A stretch of DNA of 35,460 bases from Acidithiobacillus ferruginosus. Its GTDB lineage: Bacteria > Pseudomonadota > Gammaproteobacteria > Acidithiobacillales > Acidithiobacillaceae. This document shows, piece after piece, positions 19,041 to 35,173 of the stretch. The stretch is from contig NZ_JABBDR010000273.1 in the NCBI RefSeq assembly GCF_018854495.1, positions 1 to 35,460 on the forward strand, read 5' to 3'. The first letter of the stretch is position 1; the number at the start of each line of letters is the position of its first letter. The notes below the pieces were generated by a model that saw nothing but the letters and a program-made list of their open reading frames with translations, did not search any database and had not been told where the DNA came from. Both the position numbers and the translations under genes were made by a program.

Positions 19041-19602
19041 CCAGGGAACGAAACCCTACACCCCACAGACCAGCCCGCGGTGTCTGAACACGGGCAGCAG
19101 ACGATGGTGCTCCCTCTCGTCCTCTTGAACCAGGCGTCTGCCGGGAATCGGGTCGCATATCGATCCGGTTCAGCCCCACGTCACGGGGCACCTTACCCCG
19201 TATCCGAAGGAATCGAATCATGTTTGCGGTATCTTCGCCCCGATTCGCAAGGCCCCACCCGGCCCTTACCCTGATATTGTCAGCAGCGGATGTAAATTGA
19301 TACGGGCCAGCGATTGAAAGTTGATACACGAGGTTGAGAAGATCGGCGTATTGAGGCGCCGGTGATCCCGGACAACGCTCTCAAGCTCTGCCCAGCATTC
19401 AGTACTCTCTGCGGTTGATTCCGCTCATCCACACTCCGATGACGCCTGGAACGGAAAATTGCCGCGAGTATCCTTTGTCAAGGCGGCAAGTCCCCACAGT
19501 GAACATCCTGGAGGCAATACGCCCACGGCAGGGATGACCTGGGTGGAAGCCTTACTGAAAGCGGTCGCTGAAGGTCCTGCATGGAAAAAACGTTTATTTT
19601 TA
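19041..19602. other. gene-poor region with IS remnant
   Basis: About 560 bp with no convincing gene. It holds an IS21-like terminal fragment (19278-19333, listed separately). Short open frames on both strands have no recognisable protein pattern. The stretch 19178-19200 contains a CGGGG/CCCCG hairpin without a T-run. The region looks like insertion-sequence decay between the exported protein and the Pho-type locus. Confidence 0.5.
19278..19333. repeat. possible IS21-family terminal remnant
   Basis: The sequence begins TGTCAGCAGCGG and carries two spaced copies of (A)TTGATAC (19294-19302 and around 19317-19325), the second after GATTGAAAG. Multiple short repeats after a TGTCA-type tip resemble IS21-family ends as I remember them. 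No istA or istB follows, so this would be an orphan end. Identification rests on pattern memory only. Confidence 0.35.
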
Positions 19603-19890
19603 TTACCTGAAGCATAGTTTAGACGGAGATTCCTTCAACAGGGCCTCCCGATGCGCCTCAATCCAAGTCCGTCCCGGGTCCCAATCGTTTCCGGGGCGAG
19701 ACATAGCCGACCAAAAGCGCGCCTGTCCCAACTCAATGATCAGCGACACACGGGATCCGTCACGAAACTGTACATGGATGTACGGAAGCGGACGCCGTCC
19801 CCTGCCGTTGATGCGTACACGCCTGTACTGGTTTGGGTCCCAGACGGTTGGGGAGGACAAATTTGCCGTGAGTGATCTGCGCACGAACAT
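19603..19890 (-). CDS. hypothetical protein, DUF4160-like
   Basis: A 95-residue frame on the minus strand. Its layout, 'RRVRINGRGRRPLPYIHVQFRDGSR' followed by 'LGQARFWSAM' and a C-terminal 'WIEAHREALLKE', resembles DUF4160 proteins (the P-H-HV segment, the A-K/R-F-W strand and the W...HR..LL helix), which are often paired with a DUF2442 protein in toxin-antitoxin-like modules. No DUF2442 neighbour is seen. The start codon lies inside the first Pho-box repeat of the divergent receptor promoter and has no good ribosome site, so it may be decayed or not expressed. Confidence 0.35.
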   Translation of the reverse strand: MFVRRSLTANLSSPTVWDPNQYRRVRINGRGRRPLPYIHVQFRDGSRVSLIIELGQARFWSAMSRPGNDWDPGRTWIEAHREALLKESPSKLCFR

Positions 19891-19944
19891 GTCACAAAAG
19901 ATTCACAAAACTGTCATCATACTGTCATATTGGATTTGTATATT
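19889..19944 (+). promoter_or_regulatory. PhoB-type promoter: four 11-bp Pho-box repeats plus -10
   Basis: Four contiguous 11-bp units are visible: ATGTCACAAAA (19889), GATTCACAAAA (19900), CTGTCATCATA (19911) and CTGTCATATTG (19922). The last two match the enterobacterial Pho box (CTGTCAT, 4 bp, CTGTCAT) exactly in both half-sites. TATATT at 19939-19944 lies 10 bp after the last CTGTCAT, the spacing of PhoB-activated promoters that lack a -35 box. It faces the TonB receptor operon. Expression should rise in phosphate starvation. Confidence 0.82.
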
Positions 19945-20014
19945 ACGCACCATAAAAAGACAACTGAGCGTAACCCAAAAAACAACCGCGTGAAAAATCT
20001 GGAGCAGTAAATAT

Positions 20015-20048
20015 CTCTACCCACGCCATGCGGGCGGGGAGTATTTTT
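20015..20048 (+). promoter_or_regulatory. possible leader hairpin followed by T-run
   Basis: In the roughly 150-nt leader of the receptor gene, an imperfect GC-rich stem (left arm 20015-20026, right arm 20030-20041, a few mismatches or bulges) is followed at once by TATTTTT. It has the look of an intrinsic terminator placed before the coding region, so it could attenuate the operon or be accidental. Confidence 0.3.
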
Positions 20049-20103
20049 GCTGCCCAGGCAACCTGATTTGTTGAAGTCAAACACCAACGGAAGGGAGCCA
20101 GTC

Positions 20104-22308
20104 ATGATCACGCGTCGTCGAAAAGTGCTTTATCCAGCCATTATTAGTGCCGTCGTCACCCTCAACGCCATTAATGCAGATGCAACCGAGCAGTCTCTGG
20201 GAACAGTGACCGGAACCGCGGAGGCCAGCAACAATTTCTTCGGTAGCGGACCTAACGTCAACACAGGAGAAACACCCAAAAGCGATATCCAGCGCATCCA
20301 GAAGTTCAACAAAAATGCCACCAACCAGGAAACCCTGATCACACGCGGGCAGTTTGAGATGCTGGCACCCACCGACGCCTATACCCAGGTGCTTAACAAC
20401 ATGCCCAATGCCATGGTGGTGAGCAGTGGCGACAGCATGGACGGTGATGACGTTTACACCAATGGATTTGGTAAATCACTCATCAACTTTACGTTGGACG
20501 GCATACCGCTGAATGACAATGACAGCTATACCTATTACACGAATGAGTTTATTCCCTCAGTACTCGTGGCCGGAACCAAATATTATCCTGGTGCCGAATC
20601 TGCGGCGATTCCCGGGCTATCGGCCTTTGGCGGTTCTGTGGAAACCTACAGCCTTAAACCTTCTCAGTTTCCTTTTGTGAGACCAATCGTCGGAGCCGGA
20701 TCCTTTGGCAAATATAATATTGGCGGATTAATTAATACCGGACTTTTTGCAAAGGATTTCGCACCGACTTCTGCCTGGATATACGTGAATAAAACCCAAC
20801 GCGATGGTTACTTTCAGAACAATGGCGCTTTGCAAAACCAGTTTTTATTCAAATCCGCGACCCAGATTGGACCTGGCGCTCTGACACTGTTTTTCACCCA
20901 GAACAACCAGCGCTTCAACTATTATAATGGCGCCACAGCAGCGCAAATCGCGCAATATGGGCAAGATTACAACAGTTACACGAGTAACCCTTTTTTACCA
21001 GGCGGCCAGGCGAATTATAATTACACCGGATACAACTACAACCAGTATCTGAACTGGTTGGGTTATGTCAAGTATGAAGGGAAGATTGGCAAGGTCAAAT
21101 TTTCAGATCAACTATACTACTATTACGGAAACGGATTTAGTGCCAGCGCGACTACCTACACCCAGACATTACTAACTCCGGAGGGCACTATTGGCAGATT
21201 TTCTCCCGCACGGAATGGTGTTTTGTTAGGCAATAGCATTAATAATACTCATCGCTGGGGTAATCTGGCCAGAATCATCTATCCGGTGGGTCCGGTCAGC
21301 ACAGAGCTGGGATTCTGGTTCAATCATAACAATACCCTCCATGATTCACGGTATTCAAGCGCCAGCAATACCTATCTTGGCTCCTCTTATTACGAGCCTG
21401 TAGTCACCAACACCTACCAGCCTTATGTCAATATGATCTACAAGCCGGTGGAAGCCTTGACATTATCTGGCGGCTTTAAATATCTTTATGCCACTCGTGA
21501 ATTCAAAAATTCGGTGGCCATCGCCCAGAATAAACCTGGACAATTCAACGCTAATTTCGGCTCCGTACTGCCTTCCTTTGGTGCCAATCTGCACATCATG
21601 GATAATTGGCATGCCTTCGCCAACTTTACACAAAACACCAACCCACCGGGATATAACCAGTTTTATACCGGGACCTATAACGCCGAACTCAAACCACAAA
21701 AGGCCAGCACTTATAGCATTGGAACGCACTGGGACATCGGCCCATGGAGTTCCAGCTTGCAAGCATTCAGGGTGGATTTCCAGAACTACATATTGAGTAC
21801 TACCATACAGGTTGGGTCGTTAAACCAGACGGTTCTGGCCAACGCGGGTACAGCCATAAACCAGGGTATCTCATGGCAGAATAACGTGGTGCTTAATGAC
21901 ATATTCAGCGCCTATGCCAATGTGGGTATTCTGGATGCACGCCTGACCTCATCCAACCAACCATTCCCCTACGCTCCGCATCACACCGAGGCGCTGGGAA
22001 TTATTGCACGTTACCACGGCTTTCGCGCAACGGTTTCCTTACATGAGATTGGGCAGTCGTATTATAACCTCGGCGGTAAATTTCTTCCCTTGGGTAGTCG
22101 TTTCTTCACCGATGCCTCCTTACGTTATACATTCAGAAATGCACCTCTTGGCCAATCTCTGGGCTTCAAGAATGTCACAGCCAGTCTTAATCTGAACAAC
22201 CTGTTTGACCGCAGATTTGTTCAGAGCTATAGCGGCAGCAGCAGTAATCCAAACTTGAAGCTCAATCTGCCTACCAATGTGTATGCGACGATTGATGCGA
22301 CTTTTTAA
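20104..22308 (+). CDS. TonB-dependent outer-membrane receptor, Pho-box controlled
   Basis: The 734-residue protein has a signal peptide (MITRRRKVLYPAIISAVVTL..., cleavage near ADA27), a TonB-box-like LGTVTGTA (32-39), a plug domain ('DAYTQVLNNMPNAMVV', 'INFTLDGIPLNDNDSYTYYTNEFIP', 'FGGSVETYSLKP') and a C-terminal 22-strand-type barrel full of alternating aromatic residues, ending in a terminal Phe ('NVYATIDATF'). 'LNLNNLFDRRFVQSY' is the usual TBDT last-strand region. It imports a bulky ligand across the outer membrane. Its own exbB, exbD and tonB follow, with a PhoD-like enzyme behind, and the promoter is Pho-type, so an organic phosphorus ligand is the best guess. GGAAGGGAG precedes the ATG. 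Base composition is more AT-rich than the core genes. Confidence 0.9.
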   Translation: MITRRRKVLYPAIISAVVTLNAINADATEQSLGTVTGTAEASNNFFGSGPNVNTGETPKSDIQRIQKFNKNATNQETLITRGQFEMLAPTDAYTQVLNNMPNAMVVSSGDSMDGDDVYTNGFGKSLINFTLDGIPLNDNDSYTYYTNEFIPSVLVAGTKYYPGAESAAIPGLSAFGGSVETYSLKPSQFPFVRPIVGAGSFGKYNIGGLINTGLFAKDFAPTSAWIYVNKTQRDGYFQNNGALQNQFLFKSATQIGPGALTLFFTQNNQRFNYYNGATAAQIAQYGQDYNSYTSNPFLPGGQANYNYTGYNYNQYLNWLGYVKYEGKIGKVKFSDQLYYYYGNGFSASATTYTQTLLTPEGTIGRFSPARNGVLLGNSINNTHRWGNLARIIYPVGPVSTELGFWFNHNNTLHDSRYSSASNTYLGSSYYEPVVTNTYQPYVNMIYKPVEALTLSGGFKYLYATREFKNSVAIAQNKPGQFNANFGSVLPSFGANLHIMDNWHAFANFTQNTNPPGYNQFYTGTYNAELKPQKASTYSIGTHWDIGPWSSSLQAFRVDFQNYILSTTIQVGSLNQTVLANAGTAINQGISWQNNVVLNDIFSAYANVGILDARLTSSNQPFPYAPHHTEALGIIARYHGFRATVSLHEIGQSYYNLGGKFLPLGSRFFTDASLRYTFRNAPLGQSLGFKNVTASLNLNNLFDRRFVQSYSGSSSNPNLKLNLPTNVYATIDATF

Positions 22309-22325
22309 GCATTAAAAACCACTCC

Positions 22326-22358
22326 GGTCCCTCTGGGTTCTTCCTGAGGGGCCTCTTT
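22326..22358 (+). terminator. hairpin between receptor gene and exbB
   Basis: GGTCCCTC (22326-22333) can pair with GAGGGGCC (22346-22353), 8 bp with one G-T wobble, followed by TCTTT. It lies 18 bp after the receptor stop and its right arm is also the exbB ribosome site (GAGGGG). It may act as a leaky terminator that lowers exbB-exbD-tonB-phoD expression relative to the receptor, or may hide the exbB start. Confidence 0.45.
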
Positions 22359-23051
22359 ATGAGAGAAATGAATATGGACTTTTCACTAATTGCCAGTATC
22401 GCCGCCAAATCTGGCGGTATTCTCTATATCATGCCCCTGCTGCTAATAATCGTGTTATGGGTAAGTATTGAGCGTTTTTTGTTTTTGAACCGCATGAGCC
22501 GTCTGGGAGAAAAAACTGCTAGTGCCCTAGAGCAGCTCCCGGATATCAAAGAACATAATTTGCGGCCTCTTGCTGAAACTGCAGAGTTTCCTTTTCGTGC
22601 TCTACTCCTGGTACCCATCCGCTTTCCGAACATCAAGGACAGCGCGCAACTTTCAGAAATCCTTCAGGAAGCCGTTATGCGCCAGGTCCCCTTGCTGGAT
22701 AAACGTCTTTGGCTTCTGGACACCACCGTCACGTTGGCTCCCTTACTGGGCCTGTTGGGGACAATCATTGGTATGTTTCATGCTTTTCAGATTCTCAACA
22801 ATGTGGCCAACAATCCTACTGCCATCACGGGGAGTGTTGCTGAAGCCTTGATGGCAACTGCTGCAGGTCTGGTCATCGCCATTATCGGGTTGGTTAGCTT
22901 TAATGGCCTGCAGAATCAGATGCGTTTTGTAGTACATCAAATGGAAACGTTACGCAGCATGCTCATCAATCGCTTGTCAGGACTGGATCATAGTCATGCC
23001 TTGAGCAGCACCGAGGCGCAACCCGTCATTTATGTGGCGAAAGAGGCCTAA
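22359..23051 (+). CDS. exbB: ExbB-family proton channel protein
   Basis: The 230-residue protein has the MotA/TolQ/ExbB fold: TM1 'ILYIMPLLLIIVLWVSIERFLFL', a cytoplasmic loop, then TM2 'DTTVTLAPLLGLLGTIIGMFHAFQIL' and TM3 'VAEALMATAAGLVIAIIGLVSFNGL' with the family's conserved Thr and Gly residues. With ExbD it forms the inner-membrane motor that uses the proton gradient to drive TonB. Three ATG codons (22359, 22368, 22374) could start it; the first is used. It lies 3 bp before exbD. Confidence 0.92.
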   Translation: MREMNMDFSLIASIAAKSGGILYIMPLLLIIVLWVSIERFLFLNRMSRLGEKTASALEQLPDIKEHNLRPLAETAEFPFRALLLVPIRFPNIKDSAQLSEILQEAVMRQVPLLDKRLWLLDTTVTLAPLLGLLGTIIGMFHAFQILNNVANNPTAITGSVAEALMATAAGLVIAIIGLVSFNGLQNQMRFVVHQMETLRSMLINRLSGLDHSHALSSTEAQPVIYVAKEA

Positions 23052-23054
23052 TTC

Positions 23055-23447
23055 ATGCAATATCTCGAAATGAAAAAGGGGCGGGTCGAGATCATCCCGA
23101 TGATTGACATCATGCTATTTTTACTGATTTTTTTCATCATGATCACAGTACACATGATCCCCAGTCAGGGACTGCCCACGCGTCTTCCGGGTTCCAGTTC
23201 GGCCCAGGAAATAACCAAGCCTAAAGTAATATTAACTCTGCATGCGGATGGGAGCCTGGAATTCAAGGACAAATCCATCAGTCTCCGGGATCTGGAAACA
23301 CAACTGCGCCATGGGGATCCTTCTGCAACGCAGGTTACCATTGCAGCAGATAAAGGGGCTGATATTCAGGCGTTGGTAAAAGTGATGGATGCCTGCCGTA
23401 ATGCTGGCGTCACGGCGATCGGCTTGGCTGCCAAACCGGTGTCATGA
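23055..23447 (+). CDS. exbD: ExbD-family biopolymer transport protein
   Basis: The 130-residue protein has a short basic cytoplasmic start, one membrane helix 'MIDIMLFLLIFFIMITVHMI' with the essential proton-accepting Asp (D18), and a periplasmic domain ending 'VKVMDACRNAGVTAIGLAAKP', as in ExbD/TolR. Its stop overlaps the tonB start (ATGA). Confidence 0.93.
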   Translation: MQYLEMKKGRVEIIPMIDIMLFLLIFFIMITVHMIPSQGLPTRLPGSSSAQEITKPKVILTLHADGSLEFKDKSISLRDLETQLRHGDPSATQVTIAADKGADIQALVKVMDACRNAGVTAIGLAAKPVS

Positions 23448-24169
23448 TGTCCGCCGATCTGCGTCCTCTCGGAGAACTGGTCAAGGCGCCAGGATCAAAC
23501 GGTGGCTACAAGGCACTCCTGCTGGCGGCTGTTATCGAGGCTGTATTTGTGGCCTTGTTGATTTGGAAAAGTACAGAGCAAACGCCTCCACCAGCAGCGG
23601 TGATTGCTCCCGTCACCATCAGTCTGGTACCGCCAAGTCCACCAAAACCGCTGCCACCTCTTCCCAAACCAAAAGTGCAACCACAACCCAAACCTGAACC
23701 GCGGCCCGTGCCGCGGCCCAAGCGCCAGCCCCAGCCAGCATCACACCCGGTTGCCGAACCACCCGAGAAGCTGCCTTTACCTCAGACCCCCATGCCCAGT
23801 TCGGTACAGGCTCCAGCGACCAAGGCGGCCGTAACCCCTCCGCCGCCGCCAAGCGCTGTACCAGCCAGTCCAGCAGTACGTGAGGACTATCTGGCACAAG
23901 TAAAAGGTGCCATTCAGGCTGCTGTGCAGTTTCCGGAATCAGCGAAAATGTTGGGCGAAAATGGAAGGGTTCTGCTGCGATTTACGCTTCATGACGGTCA
24001 GATACGTGCCGTGAAGATCATGCAGAAAGGCAGCATGAGTGCTTTTGACACAGCGGCTGTGGCGGCCTTGCATGATGCGAGGCTTCCGGTTGTTCCTGCC
24101 GGTTTAAAGGATAAAAACTTTGATTTAAACGTATGGGTTGAATTCAGGCTCAGTGGCCAAAGCGAATAA
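23444..24169 (+). CDS. tonB: TonB-family energy transducer
   Basis: The 241-residue protein has one membrane helix (about residues 25-42, 'LLLAAVIEAVFVALLIW'), a long periplasmic Pro/Lys/Gln-rich rod (about residues 47-150, many PxP and KPxP units) and a C-terminal TonB domain: 'LAQVKGAIQAAVQFPESAKMLGENGRVLLRFTLHDGQIRAVKIMQKGS' then 'FDTAAVAALHDARLP'. It carries energy from ExbBD to the receptor upstream. ATGATG start overlaps the exbD end by 4 bp. Confidence 0.93.
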   Translation: MMSADLRPLGELVKAPGSNGGYKALLLAAVIEAVFVALLIWKSTEQTPPPAAVIAPVTISLVPPSPPKPLPPLPKPKVQPQPKPEPRPVPRPKRQPQPASHPVAEPPEKLPLPQTPMPSSVQAPATKAAVTPPPPPSAVPASPAVREDYLAQVKGAIQAAVQFPESAKMLGENGRVLLRFTLHDGQIRAVKIMQKGSMSAFDTAAVAALHDARLPVVPAGLKDKNFDLNVWVEFRLSGQSE

Positions 24170-24183
24170 AGGATCAATAACCT

Positions 24184-25563
24184 ATGTACATTACGCGCAG
24201 AAATTTTTTAATGCATACCGGGGTTGGCATCGGTGCCGGCCTTGCCTGGCCCATGACCGCTTTCGCCATGCAAGTGCCTGCCCGTGCCACGCGCCTGCAT
24301 TCCGGGCCAATGACAGGATACCCGGCACAGCGTTCTGCCAGTATCTGGATGCAGACTTTGGGACCAGCAAAGATCAGCATCGCTTACTGGCCTGTCAAAC
24401 AGCCCCATTTACAAGAAACCAGTAGAGAGTTTTTAACCAGCGCCAAGGAATTTTACACCGCCCTGATCACACTAGATGATCTTGCACCTGGTGCGGTTTA
24501 TCAGACTGAAATCCGTCTGGATGGCCAGGCTCTGAACAGTCAAGGTCTGCAAATACATACTCCAGAGCTTTGGCAGTGGCGCCATCCTGCACCAGATTTT
24601 AAAATCTTGACGGGATCCTGTGCGTATATCAATGATCCGAAATATGATCGTCCGAGCAAGCCCTATGGGGGCGGTTACGAAATATATGATCCGATGACTG
24701 CAGAATCCGCAGACATGATGATCTGGTTGGGAGACAATCTATACTTTCGGGAGGCTGACATCCAGAGCCCGGCCGGAATGGCTATGCGGTACTGGACGGA
24801 TCGTGCTTTTACCCCTTTGCAGAAGTTTCTGCAATCAACCAGACAGGTGGCCATCTGGGACGATCATGATTATGCCGCGAATGATAGTGACAGCAGTTTC
24901 GTTCTCAAAGAAACGTCCCTTCACCTTTTTCAGCGTTATTGGGCCAACCCTTCTTATGGACTGCCTGGTGCTCCCGGCGTTTTTACGCAATGCACCCTGA
25001 ACGATGCCGAGTTTTTTCTGTTGGATGATCGCTGGTATCGCGATGCAGACGCCGCCCATCTGTCGAGTGGTAAACAGATGTTTGGCAAAGCACAAATGGA
25101 TTGGTTAAAAAACGCCCTGCTCAGTTCTCGTGCGCATTTCAAAATCGTTGCGGCAGGAGGTCAGCTTTTTAATGATGATGATGCTTATGAAGGATGGAAT
25201 TTGTATCCAGAAGAACGGCAGGATTTCATGGATTGGCTGCAAAACAATAATGTCAGAGGTTTGCTTTTCCTTTCGGGGGATCGTCATATCAGTGAATTAA
25301 TGCGGAGACCACGCCCTCACTATTCTGGCAAACACGATTATCCTCTTTGGGAGCTCACCAGCTCTCCGCTGAACTCCAGCCCGGCCAAAGGAGACGCCAA
25401 TCCCTATCGGGTTCCCGGCACCCTGGTAGAGGCCCGCAATTATTGCAGCATTGAATTTCTCGGCAAAGGCTCCGATCGGCATCTTCACTTAAGCTGCAAA
25501 TCAAGCGAAGGTAAATTAATCTGGAAGCATCGGATCAGCAGCGCTGATCTGGGCTATGCCTGA
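24184..25563 (+). CDS. PhoD-like alkaline phosphatase/phosphodiesterase, Tat-exported
   Basis: The 459-residue protein starts with a twin-arginine signal (TRRNFLMHTGVGIGAGLAWP; R5-R6), so it is likely folded and metal-loaded before export to the periplasm. The mature protein has an N-terminal Fn3-like strand region and the PhoD metallophosphatase core: GSC (144-146, Cys iron ligand), WLGDNLY (181-187, D184), WDDHDYAANDSD (225-236), and a late SGDRH motif near residue 366. PhoD enzymes use Fe3+ and Ca2+ to hydrolyse phosphate mono- and diesters. It follows tonB by 14 bp, downstream of the Pho-box promoter, so it probably releases phosphate from the ligand imported by the receptor. Confidence 0.88.
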   Translation: MYITRRNFLMHTGVGIGAGLAWPMTAFAMQVPARATRLHSGPMTGYPAQRSASIWMQTLGPAKISIAYWPVKQPHLQETSREFLTSAKEFYTALITLDDLAPGAVYQTEIRLDGQALNSQGLQIHTPELWQWRHPAPDFKILTGSCAYINDPKYDRPSKPYGGGYEIYDPMTAESADMMIWLGDNLYFREADIQSPAGMAMRYWTDRAFTPLQKFLQSTRQVAIWDDHDYAANDSDSSFVLKETSLHLFQRYWANPSYGLPGAPGVFTQCTLNDAEFFLLDDRWYRDADAAHLSSGKQMFGKAQMDWLKNALLSSRAHFKIVAAGGQLFNDDDAYEGWNLYPEERQDFMDWLQNNNVRGLLFLSGDRHISELMRRPRPHYSGKHDYPLWELTSSPLNSSPAKGDANPYRVPGTLVEARNYCSIEFLGKGSDRHLHLSCKSSEGKLIWKHRISSADLGYA

Positions 25564-25908
25564 ACAGCCAGTCAAGAGGAACTGGTGCGCGGATAGTCCA
25601 TTAGGGCCAGGGCTAATGCCCAACAACAGGCCGGATACATGTGTGCAGTCAACCCAATCCAAAATCTACGGCCTCTTGCAAAACCGAGGACGTTCATACA
25701 TGGGGAATACAAAGGGTATAATAAGGACATAGAAAGGGCAGAATCTCCTTTGTTATCGTGGGAAGTGAATGAGCCTTTCACGATAGCCGGGGCAAGACTG
25801 ATCGGTGCTCCGACCATAGAGGCGGAAAACGCGTGATGGCTGGTTCGTGGCTATAATGAATAGCCGGTTACTCAAATACTGCCCATATGGCCAACACCGG
25901 AGGCAATC
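25564..25908. other. intergenic region, no gene seen
   Basis: About 345 bp between the PhoD-like gene and the DUF6868 gene. Two small hairpins just after the phosphatase stop (CCAGT/ACTGG near 25567-25584 and CATTAG/CTAATG near 25599-25618) might protect or end the transcript but have no T-run. Frames on either strand of up to 81 codons show no family pattern. GGAGG before the next ATG is the only clear signal. Confidence 0.4.
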
Positions 25909-27667: not shown

Positions 27668-30600
27668 ATGCAAAACCCTTTCTTTGAAAAACCCATCCTC
27701 AATTCCCCCTATGCGTATCCGCAGCGTCATTGGGAACTGGATGCGCAGGGGCAGCCGACTCAACGCATCATCGACAATCGCCGCAAGGCGGAATTCATCA
27801 GCCCCATTCCCCGACCACGCAAGCAAAAAGGGCCCGGCCGGCAGGCATCGCTGGTGCTCGACCAAGGACTGGGGCTCTCGACTGAGGAGCAGCAGTACAA
27901 CATCACCGCGCTCATCAACGGCGTGCGTGCCGAAGTAGACCAGTGGCGCGGCATCCCCAACCCCGCAGACTGGCGGGTAACCCCGGAAACGGCCCGGCTG
28001 CTGCAACACTGGCGGCACCACGCTTTCAGCAGTATTCGCCCCTTCTTCTGTCAGATCGAAGCGGTGGAAACCGCCATCTGGCTGACCGAAGTCGCGCCGC
28101 AGATGGGGAAATCAGCGCAGACCTATATAGATCACCTGCGTAACGCCAGTCACGATGCCAACCCGGACCTGTTGCGTCTGGCGCTCAAACTGGCCACCGG
28201 TGCGGGCAAGACCACGGTGATGGCTATGCTCATTGCCTGGCAGACCGTCAACGCAGTGCGGCACCCCAACAGCAAAAAATTCACGCGGGGCTTTTTGATC
28301 GTAGCGCCCGGCATCACCATCAAAGATCGTCTGCGCGTGCTGCAACCCAACGATCCGGACAGCTACTACGCCAGCCGCGAACTGGTGCCCGGCGATATGC
28401 TGGCTGATCTGGAACGCGCCCGCATCGTTATCACCAACTACCATGCCTTCAAGCTGCGCGAGCGGCTGGAACTCTCCAAGGGCGGTCGCCGCCTGCTCCA
28501 GGGGCAGGGCGGTGAGGCGCTGAACACGCTGGAGACGGAAGGCCAGATGCTCCAGCGCGTTATGCCCGAACTCATGGGTCTGAAAAACGTTATCGCCATC
28601 AATGACGAGGCCCACCACTGCTACCGCGAGAAACCCGGTGCGACGGACGACGATCTCAAAGGCGACGAGAAAAAGGAGGCCGAAGAGAACAGCGCCGCCG
28701 CCCGCCTGTGGATATCGGGGCTGGAAGCGGTGCAGCGTAAGCTCGGGCTGGCGCGGGTGTTTGATCTCTCCGCCACCCCCTTTTTCCTGAGCGGCTCGGG
28801 CTATGTCGAGGGTACACTCTTCCCCTGGACCATGAGTGACTTCTCGCTGATGGACGCCATCGAATGCGGCATCGTCAAGCTGCCGCGAGTGCCGGTGGCG
28901 GACAATATCCCCGGCGGCGAGATGCCCATGTTCCGCAACCTCTGGGAACATATCCGCGGCCAGATGCCCAAGCCTGGGCGCGGCAAAGGCAATCCCATAG
29001 ACCCACTGTCTATGCCGACACCTCTGCAAACCGCTCTGGATGCGCTATATGGTCATTACGACAAGACCTTCAAGCTCTGGGAGGGGGCGAACATTGCCGT
29101 ACCGCCCTGCTTCATCATCGTCTGCAATAATACTGCGACATCCAAGCTGGTTTATGACTATATCGCTGGTTTTCTGCAAGTCCAGCAAGACGGCTCCACT
29201 AAGTTGGTGGACGGACGCCTGCCGCTGTTTCGCAATTATGACGAGTATGGCAACGCGCTGGGCCGCCCGCGTACCCTGCTTATCGACAGCGAACAACTGG
29301 AATCCGGTGATGCGCTGGATGACAAATTCCGCGTCATGGCGGCTGATGAGATCGAGCGTTTTCGTCGCGAGATGGTGGAGCGCAGCGGCGATCTGCAATC
29401 GGGTCAGAACATCAGCGATCAGGAGCTGTTGCGCGAGGCGATGAACACCGTCGGCAAGCCGGGCCGGCTGGGCGATTCCATCCGCTGCGTGGTTTCCGTA
29501 TCCATGCTGACCGAGGGCTGGGATGCTAACACCGTCACCCATGTGCTGGGGGTGCGTGCCTTCGGCACCCAGTTGCTCTGCGAACAGGTCATTGGCCGCG
29601 CTTTGCGGCGCCAGTCCTACGATCTGAATGAGGAAGGGCTGTTCAACGTCGAGTATGCCGATGTGCTGGGCATTCCCTTCGATTTCACCGCCAAGCCGGT
29701 GGTGGCGCCACCGCAACCACCCCGCGAGACCATCCACGTCAAAGCCGTGCGACCCGAGCGCGATGCCCTGGAAATCCGCTTTCCACGGGTGCAGGGTTAC
29801 CGCGTCGAGTTACCGGAAACGCCGCTCGCGGCGCGTTTCGATGCCGACTCGGTCCTGGAACTCACGCCCGATTTGGTCGGCGCCACCGAGACCCGCAACT
29901 CCGGCATCATCGGCGAGACGGTGGACCTCAACCTTGTCCATATCGGCGACGTGCGCCCCTTGCAGGTAGTCTACGAACTGACCTCCTACCTGCTGCTCAA
30001 CGAGTTCCGCGACAACGACGGCGCGCCGAAACTCTACCTTTTCGGCCAGCTCAAGCGCATTGCTCGGCAATGGCTCGATGGTTATTTGACCTGCAAGGGC
30101 GGCACCTACCCGGCGCAACTCAAATACAAGATGCTGGCCGACATGGCCGCCAGCCGCATTATCACCGCTATCAATCGCGCCATGCTCACGGACCATTCCG
30201 AAGCGGCACAGCGCCATATTCACGTCGTCCTGGACCCCTATAACCCGAGTGGCAGCACTACCCACGTCAACTTCAACACCTCCAAGACCGAACGCTGGGA
30301 CACCAGCGGCCCGCCGCCCAAGTGCCACCTTAATTGGGTCATTCTCGATAGCGACTGGGAAGGGGAGTTCTGCCGTGTGGTGGAGGCCCACCCCCGCGTG
30401 CGCGCCTATGTGAAAAATCATAACCTCGGCTTTGAAGTGCCTTACCGCTACGGCTCTGAATCCCGCATCTACCGTCCCGACTTCATCGTGCGGGTGGACG
30501 ACGGCCATGGCGATAATGATCTGTTGAATCTCATCGTCGAGATCAAGGGTTATCGTGGCGAGGACGCCAAGGACAAAAAAGCCACCATGGACACCTACTG

Positions 30601-30721
30601 GGTGCCCGGCGTGAATAACCTCGGCAGCCACGGCCGCTGGGCCTTCGCCGAGTTTACGGATGTCTGGGAGATACAGGTGGCATTTAATCGGTTAATGGAA
30701 TCGGTGCGCGCATGTGCCTGA
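27668..30721 (+). CDS. type III-like restriction endonuclease (Res / BPTD_3080-like helicase-nuclease)
   Basis: The 1017-residue protein is a superfamily 2 helicase fused to a nuclease. Walker A ATGAGKT (176-182), DEAH in 'INDEAHHCYREK' (about 313), 'DLSATPFFL' (about 367), 'VSMLTEGWDANTVTHVLGVRAFGTQLLCEQVIGRALRR' (motifs V-VI, about 615-648), and a C-terminal PD-(D/E)XK site 'YRPDFIVRV' with 'LIVEIKGYRGEDAKDKK' (about 934-967). It should cut unmodified foreign DNA with its methyltransferase partner. The N-terminus ('NPFFEKPILNSPY') matches the BPTD_3080 type. The gene is complete, overlaps the antitoxin-like gene, and precedes dinD and mod. Confidence 0.88.
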   Translation: MQNPFFEKPILNSPYAYPQRHWELDAQGQPTQRIIDNRRKAEFISPIPRPRKQKGPGRQASLVLDQGLGLSTEEQQYNITALINGVRAEVDQWRGIPNPADWRVTPETARLLQHWRHHAFSSIRPFFCQIEAVETAIWLTEVAPQMGKSAQTYIDHLRNASHDANPDLLRLALKLATGAGKTTVMAMLIAWQTVNAVRHPNSKKFTRGFLIVAPGITIKDRLRVLQPNDPDSYYASRELVPGDMLADLERARIVITNYHAFKLRERLELSKGGRRLLQGQGGEALNTLETEGQMLQRVMPELMGLKNVIAINDEAHHCYREKPGATDDDLKGDEKKEAEENSAAARLWISGLEAVQRKLGLARVFDLSATPFFLSGSGYVEGTLFPWTMSDFSLMDAIECGIVKLPRVPVADNIPGGEMPMFRNLWEHIRGQMPKPGRGKGNPIDPLSMPTPLQTALDALYGHYDKTFKLWEGANIAVPPCFIIVCNNTATSKLVYDYIAGFLQVQQDGSTKLVDGRLPLFRNYDEYGNALGRPRTLLIDSEQLESGDALDDKFRVMAADEIERFRREMVERSGDLQSGQNISDQELLREAMNTVGKPGRLGDSIRCVVSVSMLTEGWDANTVTHVLGVRAFGTQLLCEQVIGRALRRQSYDLNEEGLFNVEYADVLGIPFDFTAKPVVAPPQPPRETIHVKAVRPERDALEIRFPRVQGYRVELPETPLAARFDADSVLELTPDLVGATETRNSGIIGETVDLNLVHIGDVRPLQVVYELTSYLLLNEFRDNDGAPKLYLFGQLKRIARQWLDGYLTCKGGTYPAQLKYKMLADMAASRIITAINRAMLTDHSEAAQRHIHVVLDPYNPSGSTTHVNFNTSKTERWDTSGPPPKCHLNWVILDSDWEGEFCRVVEAHPRVRAYVKNHNLGFEVPYRYGSESRIYRPDFIVRVDDGHGDNDLLNLIVEIKGYRGEDAKDKKATMDTYWVPGVNNLGSHGRWAFAEFTDVWEIQVAFNRLMESVRACA

Positions 30722-30957
30722 TGGACGATGCACGTCGCTCTAACATCGGCGCCAAGTCGCAGGTTTCTATAACACATCCCTCTCGTGAAAGAATCCAGAC
30801 GATAAAGTCTCTTTGGGATAGTCGTTGTCAGCAACCAGCGGATGCTTCCCCTTCCGCTTGGCACGGAAACATCTTGGCCCAACGGGAAAAGGCGCTGCGC
30901 CAAGGTGCCGATCGGTTTAAAGATTGGAGCATGGTCAAAGAGGAGTTACTCCGATGA
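30721..30957 (+). CDS. addiction-module antitoxin-like protein
   Basis: A 78-residue protein whose middle 'RERIQTIKSLWDS' and later 'HGNILAQREKALRQGADRFKDWSMVKEELLR' fit the small addiction-module component family (RelB/StbD-like unstable antitoxins, TIGR02574 type: ...LWDS... then ..L..R..A...G....W..VK..L). The family normally pairs with a RelE/ParE toxin; none is next to it. The ATG at 30721 overlaps the nuclease stop, and its own stop overlaps the dinD ATG (ATGA), so all three are coupled. An earlier ATG at 30712 is possible. Confidence 0.6.
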   Translation: MDDARRSNIGAKSQVSITHPSRERIQTIKSLWDSRCQQPADASPSAWHGNILAQREKALRQGADRFKDWSMVKEELLR

Positions 30958-31796
30958 AGTCTGAACAGGTCCACGCATTGACTACCCACTTTGAGGCGCA
31001 CGCACAGCGTACCGAGAGTGGGGTAGAGTTTTGGCTTGCACGCGATCTCCAGCATCTGCTGGGCTATAGCAAGTGGGACAACTTTCTGAACGTGGTCACC
31101 AAGGCTAAGACTGCCTGCGAGGTCTCCGGTCATGCGGTGGCGGACCATTTTGCCGATGTCGGGAAAATGGTCGATCTGGGTTCTGGTAGCCAGCGCGAAG
31201 TCGATGACCTTATGCTCACCCGCTTCGCCTGCTATCTCATCGCACAAAATGGTGACCCGAAGAAACATGAGATTGCCTTTGCCCAGACCTATTTTGCCGT
31301 ACAGACGCGGCGTGCTGAGTTGATTGAGCAACGCCTGCTTGATGCAGAGCGGGTCACGGCGCGGAAAAAGCTCATACTGACTGAAAAAGAACTTTCCCAC
31401 GTGATTTTTGAACAGACTGGCGGTAATCAGGATTTTGCTCTCATCCGCAGCAAAGGTGACCATGCACTGTTCGGCAAATCCACTCAGGCCATGAAAGCGC
31501 AATGGCAGATACCTGACAACAGACCGCTGGCTGATTTTGCCCCAACCATCATTCTCAAAGCCAAGGACTTTGCTGCCGAAATCACGATCTTCAACGCCCG
31601 CGAACATCAATTGAACAGCGAGCGCGCTATTTCCAGCGAACACATCACCAATAATGAGGCCGTGCGCAAGACATTGTTGGAACGTGGCATCCGCCCGGAA
31701 GTTCTGCCGCCTGCTGAAGATGTGAAAAAAGTCGAGCGCCGTTTGAGCGCTGAAGAGAAAAAATCACTGAAGAACCCCGATGCTCTTGATTCCTGA
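30954..31796 (+). CDS. dinD: DNA damage-inducible protein D-like (BRO-N family)
   Basis: The 280-residue protein has the DinD pattern: 'FEAHAQRTESGVEFWLARDLQHLLGYSKWDNFLNVVTKAKTACEVSG' (BRO-N core), 'DLMLTRFACYLIAQNGDPKKHEIAFAQTYFAVQTRRAELIEQRL', and a C-terminal 'NEAVRKTLLERGIRPEVLPPAEDVKKVERRL'. E. coli DinD is SOS-induced and hampers RecA filaments. Here it sits inside a restriction operon between nuclease and methyltransferase, so it may have a role in that system, such as dealing with DNA ends. No LexA box was seen before it. GAGGAG precedes the ATG at a usable distance. Confidence 0.88.
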   Translation: MKSEQVHALTTHFEAHAQRTESGVEFWLARDLQHLLGYSKWDNFLNVVTKAKTACEVSGHAVADHFADVGKMVDLGSGSQREVDDLMLTRFACYLIAQNGDPKKHEIAFAQTYFAVQTRRAELIEQRLLDAERVTARKKLILTEKELSHVIFEQTGGNQDFALIRSKGDHALFGKSTQAMKAQWQIPDNRPLADFAPTIILKAKDFAAEITIFNAREHQLNSERAISSEHITNNEAVRKTLLERGIRPEVLPPAEDVKKVERRLSAEEKKSLKNPDALDS

Positions 31797-31816
31797 CCCT
31801 AAACGGCACTTATTCC

Positions 31817-32667
31817 ATGGCTTATAAAAAGACGATCCCTCTCAGCATCGAAACCCTCACCCACGACGAGGCGACGCGCAAGAACATCCCCACCGCCGAA
31901 TATCAGGCGGTGATGCGGCAGGACGAGCAACAGCCGGTGCGGGTGGAGTACCCCCGGCAGGCCGCCGGGCTGGAGGACGAAAAGCGCAGCCGCAACCCCG
32001 ACCTCGATCCCCAGCTCATCTGGCGCGGCAAGGATCGGCAGGACTGGTCCAGCCTCGTGGTGCATGCGCCGCCCCTCTATATCCAGGAAAAGGTCCACCC
32101 CAAAGTCCTCATTGACGACCTCCGGCGCTTTCAGGCGAGGAACTCGGCATCGGGCACGAGGGGGCAGGAGGACGGCCAGCAGATCGACCTCTTCGCCGAC
32201 TTCAACGGCCTGCCCGACGCCAACGCCAAGACCGAGTTCTACCAGCACGACGCCCACTGGGCCAATCGCATGATCCTCGGCGACAGCCTGCAGGTCATGG
32301 CCAGCCTGGCCGAGCGCGAAGGCCTGCGCGGTCAGGTGCAGTGCATCTACTTCGATCCACCCTACGGCATCAAATTCAACAGCAACTTCCAGTGGTCCAC
32401 CACCAGTCGCGACGTCAAGGACGGCAATACCGAGCACATCACCCGCGAGCCGGAACAGGTCAAGGCCTTCCGCGACACCTGGAGGGACGGGATTCACTCC
32501 TACCTGACTTACTTGCGCGACCGGCTCACCGTGGCGAGGGATTTGTTGACGGATTCCGGGTCGATTTTTGTGCAGATTGGGGATGAGAATGTGCACAGGG
32601 TGCGGGCGGTGATGGATGAGGTGTTTGGTGAAACAAATTTCGTGTCGCAGATAACAGTAGTTAAAAC
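31817..32667 (+). pseudogene. DNA methyltransferase (mod), 5' part, broken by IS66
   Basis: Codons from ATG 31817 encode the start of a site-specific DNA (adenine-N6) methyltransferase: 'HDAHWANRMILGDSLQVMASLAEREGLRGQVQCIYFDPPYGIKFNSNFQ' with the catalytic DPPY (about residue 180), then 'YLTYLRDRLTVARDLLTDSGSIFVQIGDENVHRVRAVMDEVFGETNFVSQI'. The frame is cut after 'VVKT' by the IS66 element. The DPPY-first order and the Mod-type spacing fit type III or related systems. The SAM-binding FxGxG region is not in this part. The reading frame resumes on the far side of the element (35214-35383). Confidence 0.85.
32660..32667. repeat. 8-bp target-site duplication, left copy
   Basis: GTTAAAAC stands directly left of the IS66 inverted repeat and is repeated exactly at 35206-35213. 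Eight base pairs is the usual IS66 target duplication. Confidence 0.95.
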
Positions 32668-32755
32668 GTAAGCGGTAACTGAGCGGCGTTGTATTCCGGA
32701 TTTTTCAGAGGTGCAGAATGGTCTCCCAGGACATGGACTGAGGAGATCATGGGTG

Positions 32756-33118
32756 ATGGCATCGGAGACACAGAGAAAGTACCAGCGGCGCAGCGCGGAA
32801 GGCTGGCGGGCGCTATTGGCGCAGCAGGCGGTCAGCGGCCTGACTATTGGGGCGTTTTGCCGCAAGGTGTCCGTGAGTACGGCGAGTTTCTACCGCTGGC
32901 GGGAGTTGCTGCAAAAGAACGGCGATTCAGGCATGGCGGCGGCTGTGACCGATCGCGTTCCGACAGCCATGGCACCCCGCCGCACGCCGGATTTCGTGGA
33001 TCTGGGCGCGCTGGAAGATTTGGCAGCACCTGTGCCGCGCGACGATGCCGCATCGCCACGCGTGGAACTCCGCCTGGAATTAGGCGGTGGCCTGGTCCTG
33101 CACTTGGTCCGTGGCTGA
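32756..33118 (+). CDS. tnpA: IS66 accessory protein TnpA
   Basis: The 120-residue protein has the N-terminal HTH region of IS66 TnpA: 'WRALLAQQAVSGLTIGAFCRKVSVSTASFYRWRELL', followed by a variable linker and 'PRVELRLELGGGLVLHLVRG' at the C-terminus. It is an IS66 accessory factor needed with TnpB and TnpC in characterised members. The ATG at 32756 is used; the tnpB start overlaps its stop (TGATG). Confidence 0.85.
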   Translation: MASETQRKYQRRSAEGWRALLAQQAVSGLTIGAFCRKVSVSTASFYRWRELLQKNGDSGMAAAVTDRVPTAMAPRRTPDFVDLGALEDLAAPVPRDDAASPRVELRLELGGGLVLHLVRG

Positions 33119-33468
33119 TGTTTTTTCCGGAAGGTCAGGTACGGGTGCATCTCTGCGGCCAGCCGGTGGATATGCGTAAGTCTTATGACGGGCTGTATGC
33201 CCTGACCCGCAATACCCTGCACCGGGACCCGCTGTCCGGTCACCTTTTCGTCTTCATCAACCGACGGGCCACCCAGATGAAAGTGCTGTACTGGGACCGC
33301 ACTGGATTCTGTCTCTGGGCCAAGCGCCTGGAGCAGGGTCGATTTCTCTCGGACTGGCAGAATGTCACGCCGCGGGAAATGGATTGGACCGGCCTCAAGC
33401 TGATGCTCGAAGGCATTGAGCCGGGGCATCTGCGCAAGCGTTATAAAGGGCCGATAAATGCGCAATAA
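33118..33468 (+). CDS. tnpB: IS66 accessory protein TnpB
   Basis: The 116-residue protein is the IS66 Orf2 type: 'VHLCGQPVDMRKSYDGLYALTRNTLHRDPLSGHLFVFINRRATQMKVLYWDRTGFCLWAKRLEQGRF' is the near-invariant family core. Its ATG overlaps the tnpA stop, and its end overlaps the tnpC start. Role in transposition is accessory. Confidence 0.96.
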   Translation: MFFPEGQVRVHLCGQPVDMRKSYDGLYALTRNTLHRDPLSGHLFVFINRRATQMKVLYWDRTGFCLWAKRLEQGRFLSDWQNVTPREMDWTGLKLMLEGIEPGHLRKRYKGPINAQ

Positions 33469-35173
33469 CCAAGCGTTTTTATGGACAAAAGTGCCCGTTA
33501 TTGATACGATTTTGCTCATGAAAGCGACGACGGCAGCAGCCCTTTTCCCCACGCCTTTGAGCCTCGAACAGGCGGCGGCTTTTACCCCGCAGCAGGTGCT
33601 CATGGCGGTGCAGGGATGGCAGCTTGCCGAACAACAAGCCGCAGCCTTCCAACAGCAACTGACGGCCTTCAAAGAACAGATCGATGCCTTGAAACATCAA
33701 CTCGACTGGTTCAAGCGCCAGACCTTCGGGCAGAAGAGCGAAAAGCGGATCCCGGAAGCACCGGCCAACCAGCTCAGTTTGGGTGAGACGATGGAGATGG
33801 AAGCGGCGGTCCCCCCCGCCACATCACCCACCCGTCTGGTCCCTGCCCATCAACGGAAGGTCTTGCGCTCAGCAGAAGACAAAGCGGAAGCCGTGCCCTT
33901 CTTCGATGAAAACCGGGTGCCGGTAGAAACCATCGAGGTCCCCAACCCGGAAATAGCCGACCTGACGCCGGAGCAGTACACCGTCATCGGCAGCAAAGAG
34001 ACCTACCGTTTGGCGCAACAGCCCGGCAGTTATGTGGTGATCAAATACGTCCGCCCGGTGATCAAGCGCCTCGACACCCAGACCATCAGCTGTCCGCCCG
34101 CTCCGGTGGGCGTTCTCGAAGGCAGCCGCGCCGACGTCAGCTTCGCAGCCGGGATGACGGTGGACAAGTTCCTCTACCATCTGCCGCTCTACCGCATTCA
34201 TCAGCGCTTGCAGGATATGGGTTTTACCTTAAGCCGGGTCTGGCTGACCCAACTGATGCAGCGGATCGTGAGCCTCCTGGACCCCATTTACAACGCCCAG
34301 TTCGACTCCATCCGCGCTTCCCGGGTCAAGGCCATGGATGAAACCCCCATCAAAGCCGGTCTGCAAGGACCGGGGAAAATGAAGCAGGGCTATTTCTGGC
34401 CGGTCTATGGCGAGCGGGACGAGATCTGCTTCCCCTACTGCGAGAGCCGCCGGGCAGAACATGTGGATCAGCTCCTGGGACTGACGGCACCACCCGGTGC
34501 CGTGCTGATCACCGATGGTTATGCGGCCTATAGCCGCTACGAGAAGAAAACGGAAGGGCTGACCCATGCCCAGTGCTGGGCGCATACCCGCCGTGAATTC
34601 TTCGAGAGCCAGGACGCCGATCCGCAGCGGGCGGCCGTGGCGCTGGAAATGATCGGCAGTATCTATGCGGTGGAAGCCGAGATTCGGGATCGGGGACTGA
34701 AAGGCGCCAAAAAGCAGGATGTCCGGCTGACCAAAGCCAAGCCTCTGGTGGAAGAATTCTTCACCTGGGTGGCCGACACGGCCGCCGATACCGGATTACT
34801 GCCCAGCAATCCCATGAGCAAAGCCTTGGCCTATGCCCACAAACGCCGGGCGGGGCTGGAGGTCTTCCTCAGCGATGCCGATGTGCCCATCGACACAAAT
34901 CATCTGGAAAGAGGCTTGCGGGTGATTCCCGTGGGTCGAAAAAATTGGCTCTTCTGTTGGACGGAGCTGGGTGCCAAGCAGGTGGGCATCGTGCAGAGTC
35001 TGCTGACCACTTGCCGCCTCCACGACATCAATCCCTATGACTATCTGGTCGATGTCTTGCAGCGGGTCGGCCAGCATCCCAGCTCACGCGTCGCCGAGTT
35101 GACGCCAAGGCTCTGGAAAGAACACTTCGCGGCCAACCCCCTGCGCTCGGACCTCTATAACATCTCGAACTAA
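33458..35173 (+). CDS. tnpC: IS66-family transposase TnpC
   Basis: The 571-residue transposase has an N-terminal leucine-zipper-like coil ('QWLAEQQAAAFQQQLTAFKEQIDALKHQLDWFKRQTFG' region, IS66 N-domain), a modified zinc region, and the DDE catalytic core: 'VKAMDETPIKAG' (first D), 'AVLITDGYAAYSRYE' (second D), 'CWAHTRREFFE', and 'DTNHLERGLRVIPVGRKNWLF' (E). C-terminal 'LLTTCRLHDINPYDYLVDVLQRV' is standard for the family. ATG at 33458 overlaps tnpB; ATG at 33518 is an alternative start. It appears intact. Confidence 0.96.
   Translation: MRNNQAFLWTKVPVIDTILLMKATTAAALFPTPLSLEQAAAFTPQQVLMAVQGWQLAEQQAAAFQQQLTAFKEQIDALKHQLDWFKRQTFGQKSEKRIPEAPANQLSLGETMEMEAAVPPATSPTRLVPAHQRKVLRSAEDKAEAVPFFDENRVPVETIEVPNPEIADLTPEQYTVIGSKETYRLAQQPGSYVVIKYVRPVIKRLDTQTISCPPAPVGVLEGSRADVSFAAGMTVDKFLYHLPLYRIHQRLQDMGFTLSRVWLTQLMQRIVSLLDPIYNAQFDSIRASRVKAMDETPIKAGLQGPGKMKQGYFWPVYGERDEICFPYCESRRAEHVDQLLGLTAPPGAVLITDGYAAYSRYEKKTEGLTHAQCWAHTRREFFESQDADPQRAAVALEMIGSIYAVEAEIRDRGLKGAKKQDVRLTKAKPLVEEFFTWVADTAADTGLLPSNPMSKALAYAHKRRAGLEVFLSDADVPIDTNHLERGLRVIPVGRKNWLFCWTELGAKQVGIVQSLLTTCRLHDINPYDYLVDVLQRVGQHPSSRVAELTPRLWKEHFAANPLRSDLYNISN

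Follow-up and report, generated by a model that had tools for sequence, protein, structure and literature searches.

A receptor-exbB-exbD-tonB-phoD operon behind a PhoB-type array

We examined a 35,460-nucleotide stretch of DNA from the acidophilic sulfur oxidiser Acidithiobacillus ferruginosus (contig NZ_JABBDR010000273.1; hereafter the window), in which genes for a TonB-dependent outer-membrane receptor (TBDT), ExbB, ExbD, TonB and a PhoD-like phosphoesterase run in this order on the forward strand behind a four-unit PhoB-type array. The TBDT gene (20104..22308, +) encodes 734 amino acids with a plug (PF07715, 32.3 bits) and a barrel (PF00593, 78.1 bits), and its open reading frame (ORF) has an alternative opening at TTG 20047. 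It is followed by exbB (22359..23051, +), encoding a MotA/TolQ/ExbB proton channel (PF01618, 95.3 bits), by exbD (23055..23447, +; PF02472, 100.3 bits) and by tonB (23444..24169, +), whose proline-rich product carries a TonB C-terminal domain (PF03544, 36.5 bits, and TIGR01352, 31.3 bits, both above cut-offs). The last gene, phoD (24184..25563, +), encodes the phosphoesterase with a twin-arginine translocation (Tat)-type signal (PF09423, 82.9 bits against a cut-off of 27; PF25077/DUF7800, 39.2 bits). The successive spacings are 50, 3, -4 and 14 nt, with exbD and tonB overlapping by 4 nt. All five proteins exceeded their Pfam cut-offs, and the gene calls, order, strand and tight spacing that an earlier sequence-only reading had given for 19889..25563 were borne out by these coordinates and assignments.

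The array occupies 19890..19928 (+), where the cores TGTCAC, TTCAC, TGTCAT and TGTCAT recur with an 11-bp period (22/24 core matches, reached by 0/1000 dinucleotide shuffles), giving four of the tandem TGTCAY direct repeats that define Pho regulon promoters. Its 3' half is the Pho box CTGTCATCATACTGTCAT (19911-19928), the sole perfect CTGTCAT-N4-CTGTCAT across the 3.0-Mb draft genome. PhoB promoters carry a -10 hexamer about 10 nt past the box and lack a -35 element; here TATATT (19939..19944, +) was found 10 nt after the array, which stands in for the -35. The genome encodes a PhoB equivalog (TIGR02154, 302.6 bits against a cut-off of 296.2), and its pstS gene (TIGR00975) has an equal array architecture, again at 22/24.

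This promoter architecture was found to be conserved across the order. The receptor is present in 17 genomes of the order, of which one (G018) was dropped, its contig ending inside the receptor, and an array headed the operon in all 16 promoters examined, the window included. A strong array lay within 300 bp of the receptor in 14 of these (0/500 shuffles for four units). For G007 and G020 the receptor's own upstream region was at background and acpA stood in front, preceded by an array of 19/24; these two arrays carry no shuffle statistic, unlike the other 14. It was noted that TAnnnT falls at exactly +10 in 15/16 operon heads and in 23/25 array promoters when pstS is included, against 0-3/25 at each of the other offsets from +4 to +19. 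The two array promoters missing the hexamer (L097 and C281b) hold additional repeat-like units. A loose fifth array unit was considered and rejected, automatic extension placing the hexamer at +10 in 22/25 promoters and fixed four-unit arrays in 23/25. Among the 403 ORFs scored in the retrieved loci, the best array score was most often 13; it reached 19 or more for 38 ORFs, most of which are genes of the present analysis and which need not all be phosphate-linked.

By contrast with the array, a Fur box of the kind expected for a Fur-controlled iron system was not found at the operon promoter by a plain consensus scan (best 10/19 in the 400 bp upstream, shuffle mean 10.9). The sole Fur-like 15-mer listed on contig C193 (3 mismatches) lies inside phoD and none lies at the promoter; genome-wide, such 15-mers exceeded the control (73 vs 25). 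On these features we predict with high confidence that the operon is under PhoB-type control. The Pho-box promoter claimed by the sequence-only reading is supported by the arrays at every operon head examined, by the same architecture at pstS and by the lack of a Fur-like site in our scan.

Conservation of the operon

Of 31 genomes of the order, 15 have phoD and 17 have the receptor, the two occurring together in 14 (Fisher exact test; p = 3e-5, not corrected for kinship). A search for the synteny with upstream Pho boxes, which had been suggested as a check on the sequence-only reading, showed that 12 of the 15 genomes with phoD, the window's among them, keep the five genes collinear on a single strand, next to the arrays described above. 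Within those 12, the tonB match of G010 is in two pieces and the phoD of G015 carries two flagged stops. It was also observed that the orthologous receptor of G026 (L093), another of the 12, is split into two pieces about 1.3 kb apart. In G028 and G019 the operon is broken up or truncated at contig ends, and the operon genes of A. sulfuriphilus (G020; locus L018), of which acpA is the first, are interrupted by a second tonB, a second TBDT gene and a PF04185 phosphoesterase gene. The notion that A. sulfuriphilus is devoid of phoD and of a Pho array was rejected, since in G020 phoD was found some 8 kb further downstream and the array in front of acpA. The window receptor is 92% identical to that of A. 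sulfurivorans and the window PhoD 86% identical to that of A. thiooxidans.

A receptor profile search (7997 candidates scored) gave, at E 1e-20 or better, 34 homologous clusters besides that of the window, within the same family only. The receptor was matched in 5/369 genomes of the class at E 1e-30, of which the window genome and G018 were close and the other three at 26-28% identity, and in 1/398 genomes of the phylum at 1e-50, namely its own; phoD was matched in 3/369 genomes of the class at 1e-70, its own included. A plasmid search found no receptor. Receptors named Thiomonas, Halothiobacillus and Sulfuriferula, outside the order, showed 47-49% identity. Six receptor matches share longest contigs of identical size with PhoD matches (5139, 9112, 3400, 26812, 60821 and 2908964), which suggests, indirectly, that receptor and PhoD are linked; the last, a 2.9-Mb Halothiobacillus chromosome, shows the same genome only and not linkage. 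Because the 3400-base contig leaves about 0.2 kb beside two partial genes, with no room for exbBD-tonB, the receptor and PhoD may form the older core of the module.

The PhoD-like enzyme and its phosphorus-linked company

The phosphoesterase, for which a PF09423 search of the genome gave no second match, begins MYITRRNFLM, which we take from its motif to be a Tat-type signal. A twin-arginine motif of that kind is present in 22/36 aligned PhoD sequences and missing from 14/36, the alignment comprising the window sequence and 35 chosen from the best 120 of 4109 homologues. In all 36 sequences the GSC, GD..Y, WDDH, LD.R..R and GDRH residues were invariant. These motifs align with the solved PhoD structure 2yeq and are presumably metal-binding.

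In relatives, the surroundings of the operon also hold acpA, a PF04185 phosphoesterase, a TIGR00887-like major facilitator superfamily (MFS) protein and PhoB-like regulators. Six close Acidithiobacillus loci (L091, L092, L098-L101), some of them cut by contig ends, carry a divergent Pho-arrayed set upstream, which comprises a phosphate:H+ symporter-like MFS protein (TIGR00887, 285.8 bits, under the cut-off of 610.3), a PhoB-like DNA-binding protein and exbB2. This set also includes exbD2 in 5/6 loci and acpA in 3/6 (L091, L092 and L099), a second TBDT follows it in 4/6 (L091, L092, L098 and L100), and an EnvZ/OmpR-like pair lies convergently downstream of the operon in 5/6. In the window genome the corresponding partner set was located on another contig, C224 (L031 3962-13698). 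There, an operon of genes for a PhoB-like regulator, ExbB, ExbD, TonB and AcpA, in that order, starts behind a Pho array; genes for ExbB, a beta-propeller PF04185 phosphoesterase and TonB lie on the other strand, together with an MFS gene, phnG and phnH. Thus, in addition to PhoD in the window, two further phosphoesterases of the same genome, AcpA and the beta-propeller enzyme, travel packaged with TonB genes of their own. The phosphorus-acquisition role put forward by the sequence-only reading is supported by these neighbouring phosphoesterases and by the protein resembling a phosphate symporter.

Proposed function and alternatives

We consider phosphorus acquisition to be the likely main role of the operon. 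In the best reading, to which we give moderate confidence from the sequence evidence, PhoB induces the uptake of a phosphorus compound that is most probably organic, and inorganic phosphate (Pi) is released from it in the periplasm. At low Pi, PhoB would bind the four-unit array, replace the -35 contact and start transcription. The TBDT would import a phosphorus-containing compound across the outer membrane, most likely a small organophosphate or phosphodiester and perhaps metal-complexed, powered by the ExbB-ExbD-TonB proteins of the same transcript. After Tat export, the PhoD-like enzyme would hydrolyse the imported compound in the periplasm, and the freed Pi would enter through Pst or a phosphate:H+ symporter. 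An organic phosphorus ligand appears somewhat probable, and this TonB may pair with this receptor as a private energiser. From the overall interpretation of the sequence-only reading we retain the regulation and, probably, the direction; its private energiser and its ligand are kept as suppositions.

Several observations weigh against this reading. The enzyme reached 26.5 against a cut-off of 1000 for the alkaline phosphatase PhoD equivalog NF058638, and the nearest solved structure to the receptor, a remote one, is the iron citrate receptor FecA. The receptor is kept in G007 with only a short phoD match, and in G017 and G018 with phoD unmatched at 1e-8 in the stretch read; all three loci hold a remote SLP-like match of 24-25% identity. 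At two distant phoD loci (16 kb read) the receptor, exbB, exbD and tonB queries were unmatched, so PhoD relatives (44-46% identity) exist outside the module. None of the other Pho-arrayed receptor genes in the genome lies plainly beside a phosphatase gene. Furthermore, Osorio et al. list genes linked to such clusters as predicted Fur targets (PMC2631029), and our own Fur scan, which contrasts with that prediction, was a plain consensus scan.

One alternative is iron or joint iron-phosphate uptake, in which the FecA-like receptor would import ferric-phosphate or ferric-organophosphate, with phosphate as the chelator and PhoD supplying or recovering phosphate. A phosphorus-first variant would make Fe(III)-bound phosphate the phosphorus source in acid, iron-rich water. 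Phosphate is mostly iron-bound in such habitats and FecA is the nearest solved receptor; moreover, the hypothesis has been published for such clusters (PMC2631029). Against it stand the PhoB-type arrays at a promoter where no Fur-like site was found, and the lack of any binding-protein or ATP-binding cassette (ABC) permease family among the ten window proteins scanned with Pfam; the periplasmic binding-protein family PF01497 adjoins only the one array-less TBDT of the genome. The flanks of the relatives were searched with a chosen query set that included no iron permease. The receptor scored 63.9 of the 223.5 needed for the TIGR01783 siderophore receptors and 35.4 of the 1100 needed for NF041676 FecA. 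The closeness to a characterised siderophore receptor that the sequence-only reading had named as evidence against itself was therefore seen weakly, through the nearest solved structure, but not at the family level. Promoter and synteny shift the published iron reading towards phosphorus, and we regard iron or joint iron-phosphate uptake as rather unlikely.

The receptor could also supply a metal cofactor (Fe or Ca), or another accessory ligand, to the phosphatase rather than a phosphorus compound. Bacillus PhoD is an iron/calcium enzyme and the receptor is FecA-like; however, the receptor is kept where the phoD match is short or missing, and iron is abundant in the habitat. We judge this explanation highly improbable, and grade equally low a proposal of export or surface display, in which PhoD or another protein would be the cargo of the receptor and its private TonB system. 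Such export would fit the presence of a receptor, an energiser and one exported enzyme in a single operon, and the second exbBD-tonB operon, on C224, ends in a phosphatase with a Tat-type start with no TBDT match on the contig. In Myxococcus the TBDT Oar is reported to be needed for secretion of the PopC protease (PMC6434023). However, the plug and barrel of the receptor are normal, a receptor gene may lie beyond the end of C224, a draft contig, and XanT-XanP of Xanthomonas is an import version of such a pair (PMC12807533).

TonB-dependent receptors of the genome

Two genome papers of 2008 describe acidithiobacilli as keeping many TonB-dependent 'Fe(III)' receptors despite abundant soluble iron (PMC2631029, PMC2621215). 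A PF00593 search of the draft genome returned five TBDT genes, and four-unit arrays were found before four of them: the window gene (22/24), two on C281 (21 and 20/24) and one on C120 (22/24), each score being reached by 0/1000 shuffles. The three other arrayed TBDT genes, together with a PhoB-like regulator gene that likewise has a four-unit array upstream, lie at 5845-11746 of L037 (C281) and 3867-6230 of L039 (C120). The C281 receptors neighbour the PhoB-like regulator, a P-type ATPase and a cytochrome b561, and the C120 receptor neighbours response regulators, a PepSY protein and an efflux protein. No array precedes the fifth gene, on C75 (12/24, reached by 947/1000 shuffles), which has downstream a gene of the PF01497 family, known from iron-siderophore and B12 uptake.

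The arrays at four of five TBDT genes suggest why iron-rich acidophiles keep many 'iron' receptors, and a phosphate response of most TBDT promoters would resolve the paradox. This argument is weaker than that for the window operon, since paralogues of PhoB might be what acts on the arrays, and the count covers one genome. We raise it as a tentative possibility, short of an even chance, that the large 'iron' TonB receptor set of these iron-rich acidophilic bacteria is largely phosphorus-scavenging, TonB-driven uptake being a main route for phosphorus and not for iron. If so, the annotation of a whole receptor class would change in acidithiobacilli, organisms used for bioleaching. A four-unit Pho array (21/24) was also observed in front of an OprD-type porin gene (L034, C297, 1032-2378).

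Comparison with known systems

The cluster type is not new: a 2008 publication treated it as an iron system (PMC2631029). The FecA3-ExbBDTonB-SLP-PhoD cluster of Osorio et al., for which uptake of phosphate-chelated Fe(III) under joint Fur/PhoB control was proposed, is very probably the present cluster; it shares the genus, receptor, energiser and PhoD, some relatives examined here hold an SLP-type phosphoesterase, and it was reported in A. ferrooxidans too. It differs in being read as Fe(III) uptake, and the term 'Pho box' is absent from the accessible text. Its nearest relatives were given there as Zymomonas/Gluconobacter proteins, neither name being among the receptor matches listed here. 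In the open-access literature, outside which most subscription journals fall, we found no publication joining Acidithiobacillus, Pho box and PhoB, and none placing Pho boxes before acidithiobacilli receptors.

Three systems may serve by analogy as tested or expressed precedents. In XanT-XanP, a TBDT and a phosphodiesterase encoded on one polycistron import and cleave the sugar phosphodiester xanthosan, a function backed by knockout and uptake assays (PMC12807533). XanP is a 2H phosphoesterase and not a PhoD, the system is tied to a plant-infection nutrient, and no exbBD-tonB or Pho array of its own is reported in the accessible text. The enzyme in the window belongs to PF09423, with no 2H phosphoesterase beside the TBDT, which leaves the comparison of how the two work unaffected. 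PusCD of Flavobacterium are TonB-dependent outer-membrane transporters that adjoin phosphoesterases and are induced by Pi depletion, but they are SusCD-type with a SusD lid and come from a different phylum (PMC8115612); no SusD-type domain was found among the ten window proteins scanned, the five operon proteins included. The Caulobacter PhoB regulon also contains TBDTs (PMC11208175). In Pseudomonas aeruginosa, the sigmaVreI/PhoB regulon places a TonB energiser (exbB2-exbD2-tonB4) under PhoB-linked control and holds the phosphatase LapA; it differs in requiring an extracytoplasmic function (ECF) sigma factor and in its link to two-partner secretion, and the accessible text names no PhoD-type phosphatase (PMC7035377). 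Few TonB routes for phosphorus compounds were met in the literature, and the present operon would join them as a PhoD-type, self-energised case.

Additional features of the window

A hairpin was predicted by folding between the receptor gene and exbB (22326..22353, +), possibly an mRNA-end or stoichiometry element. It was found in all 14 intergenic regions folded (the window and 13 relatives, from 14 of 16 loci, two being left out for a split receptor and a contig end), with sequences differing between genera and z from -0.3 to -5.7, four regions being weaker than -1. Suggestively only, it perhaps sets the receptor:energiser ratio. An Rfam search of 19500-25800 gave no match, and a tRNA search of the window found none.

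Seven TonB-C and five ExbD-type matches were counted in the draft genome, which bears on whether the energiser of this operon is private. The membrane segment of the window TonB (23444-24169) carries a Glu at what we take to be the position of His20 in E. coli TonB, and this Glu seems present in most of the relatives' TonBs compared. It was ruled out as a mark of phosphate TonBs, the C75 TonB having it too.

Further along the window, 27668-35173 holds a BPTD_3080-type restriction gene (27668-30721, for which PADLOC gave no match), a PDC-S13-type gene and the start of a type III methyltransferase gene (31817-32671). The genes at about 32689-35173 presumably encode IS66-type transposition proteins.

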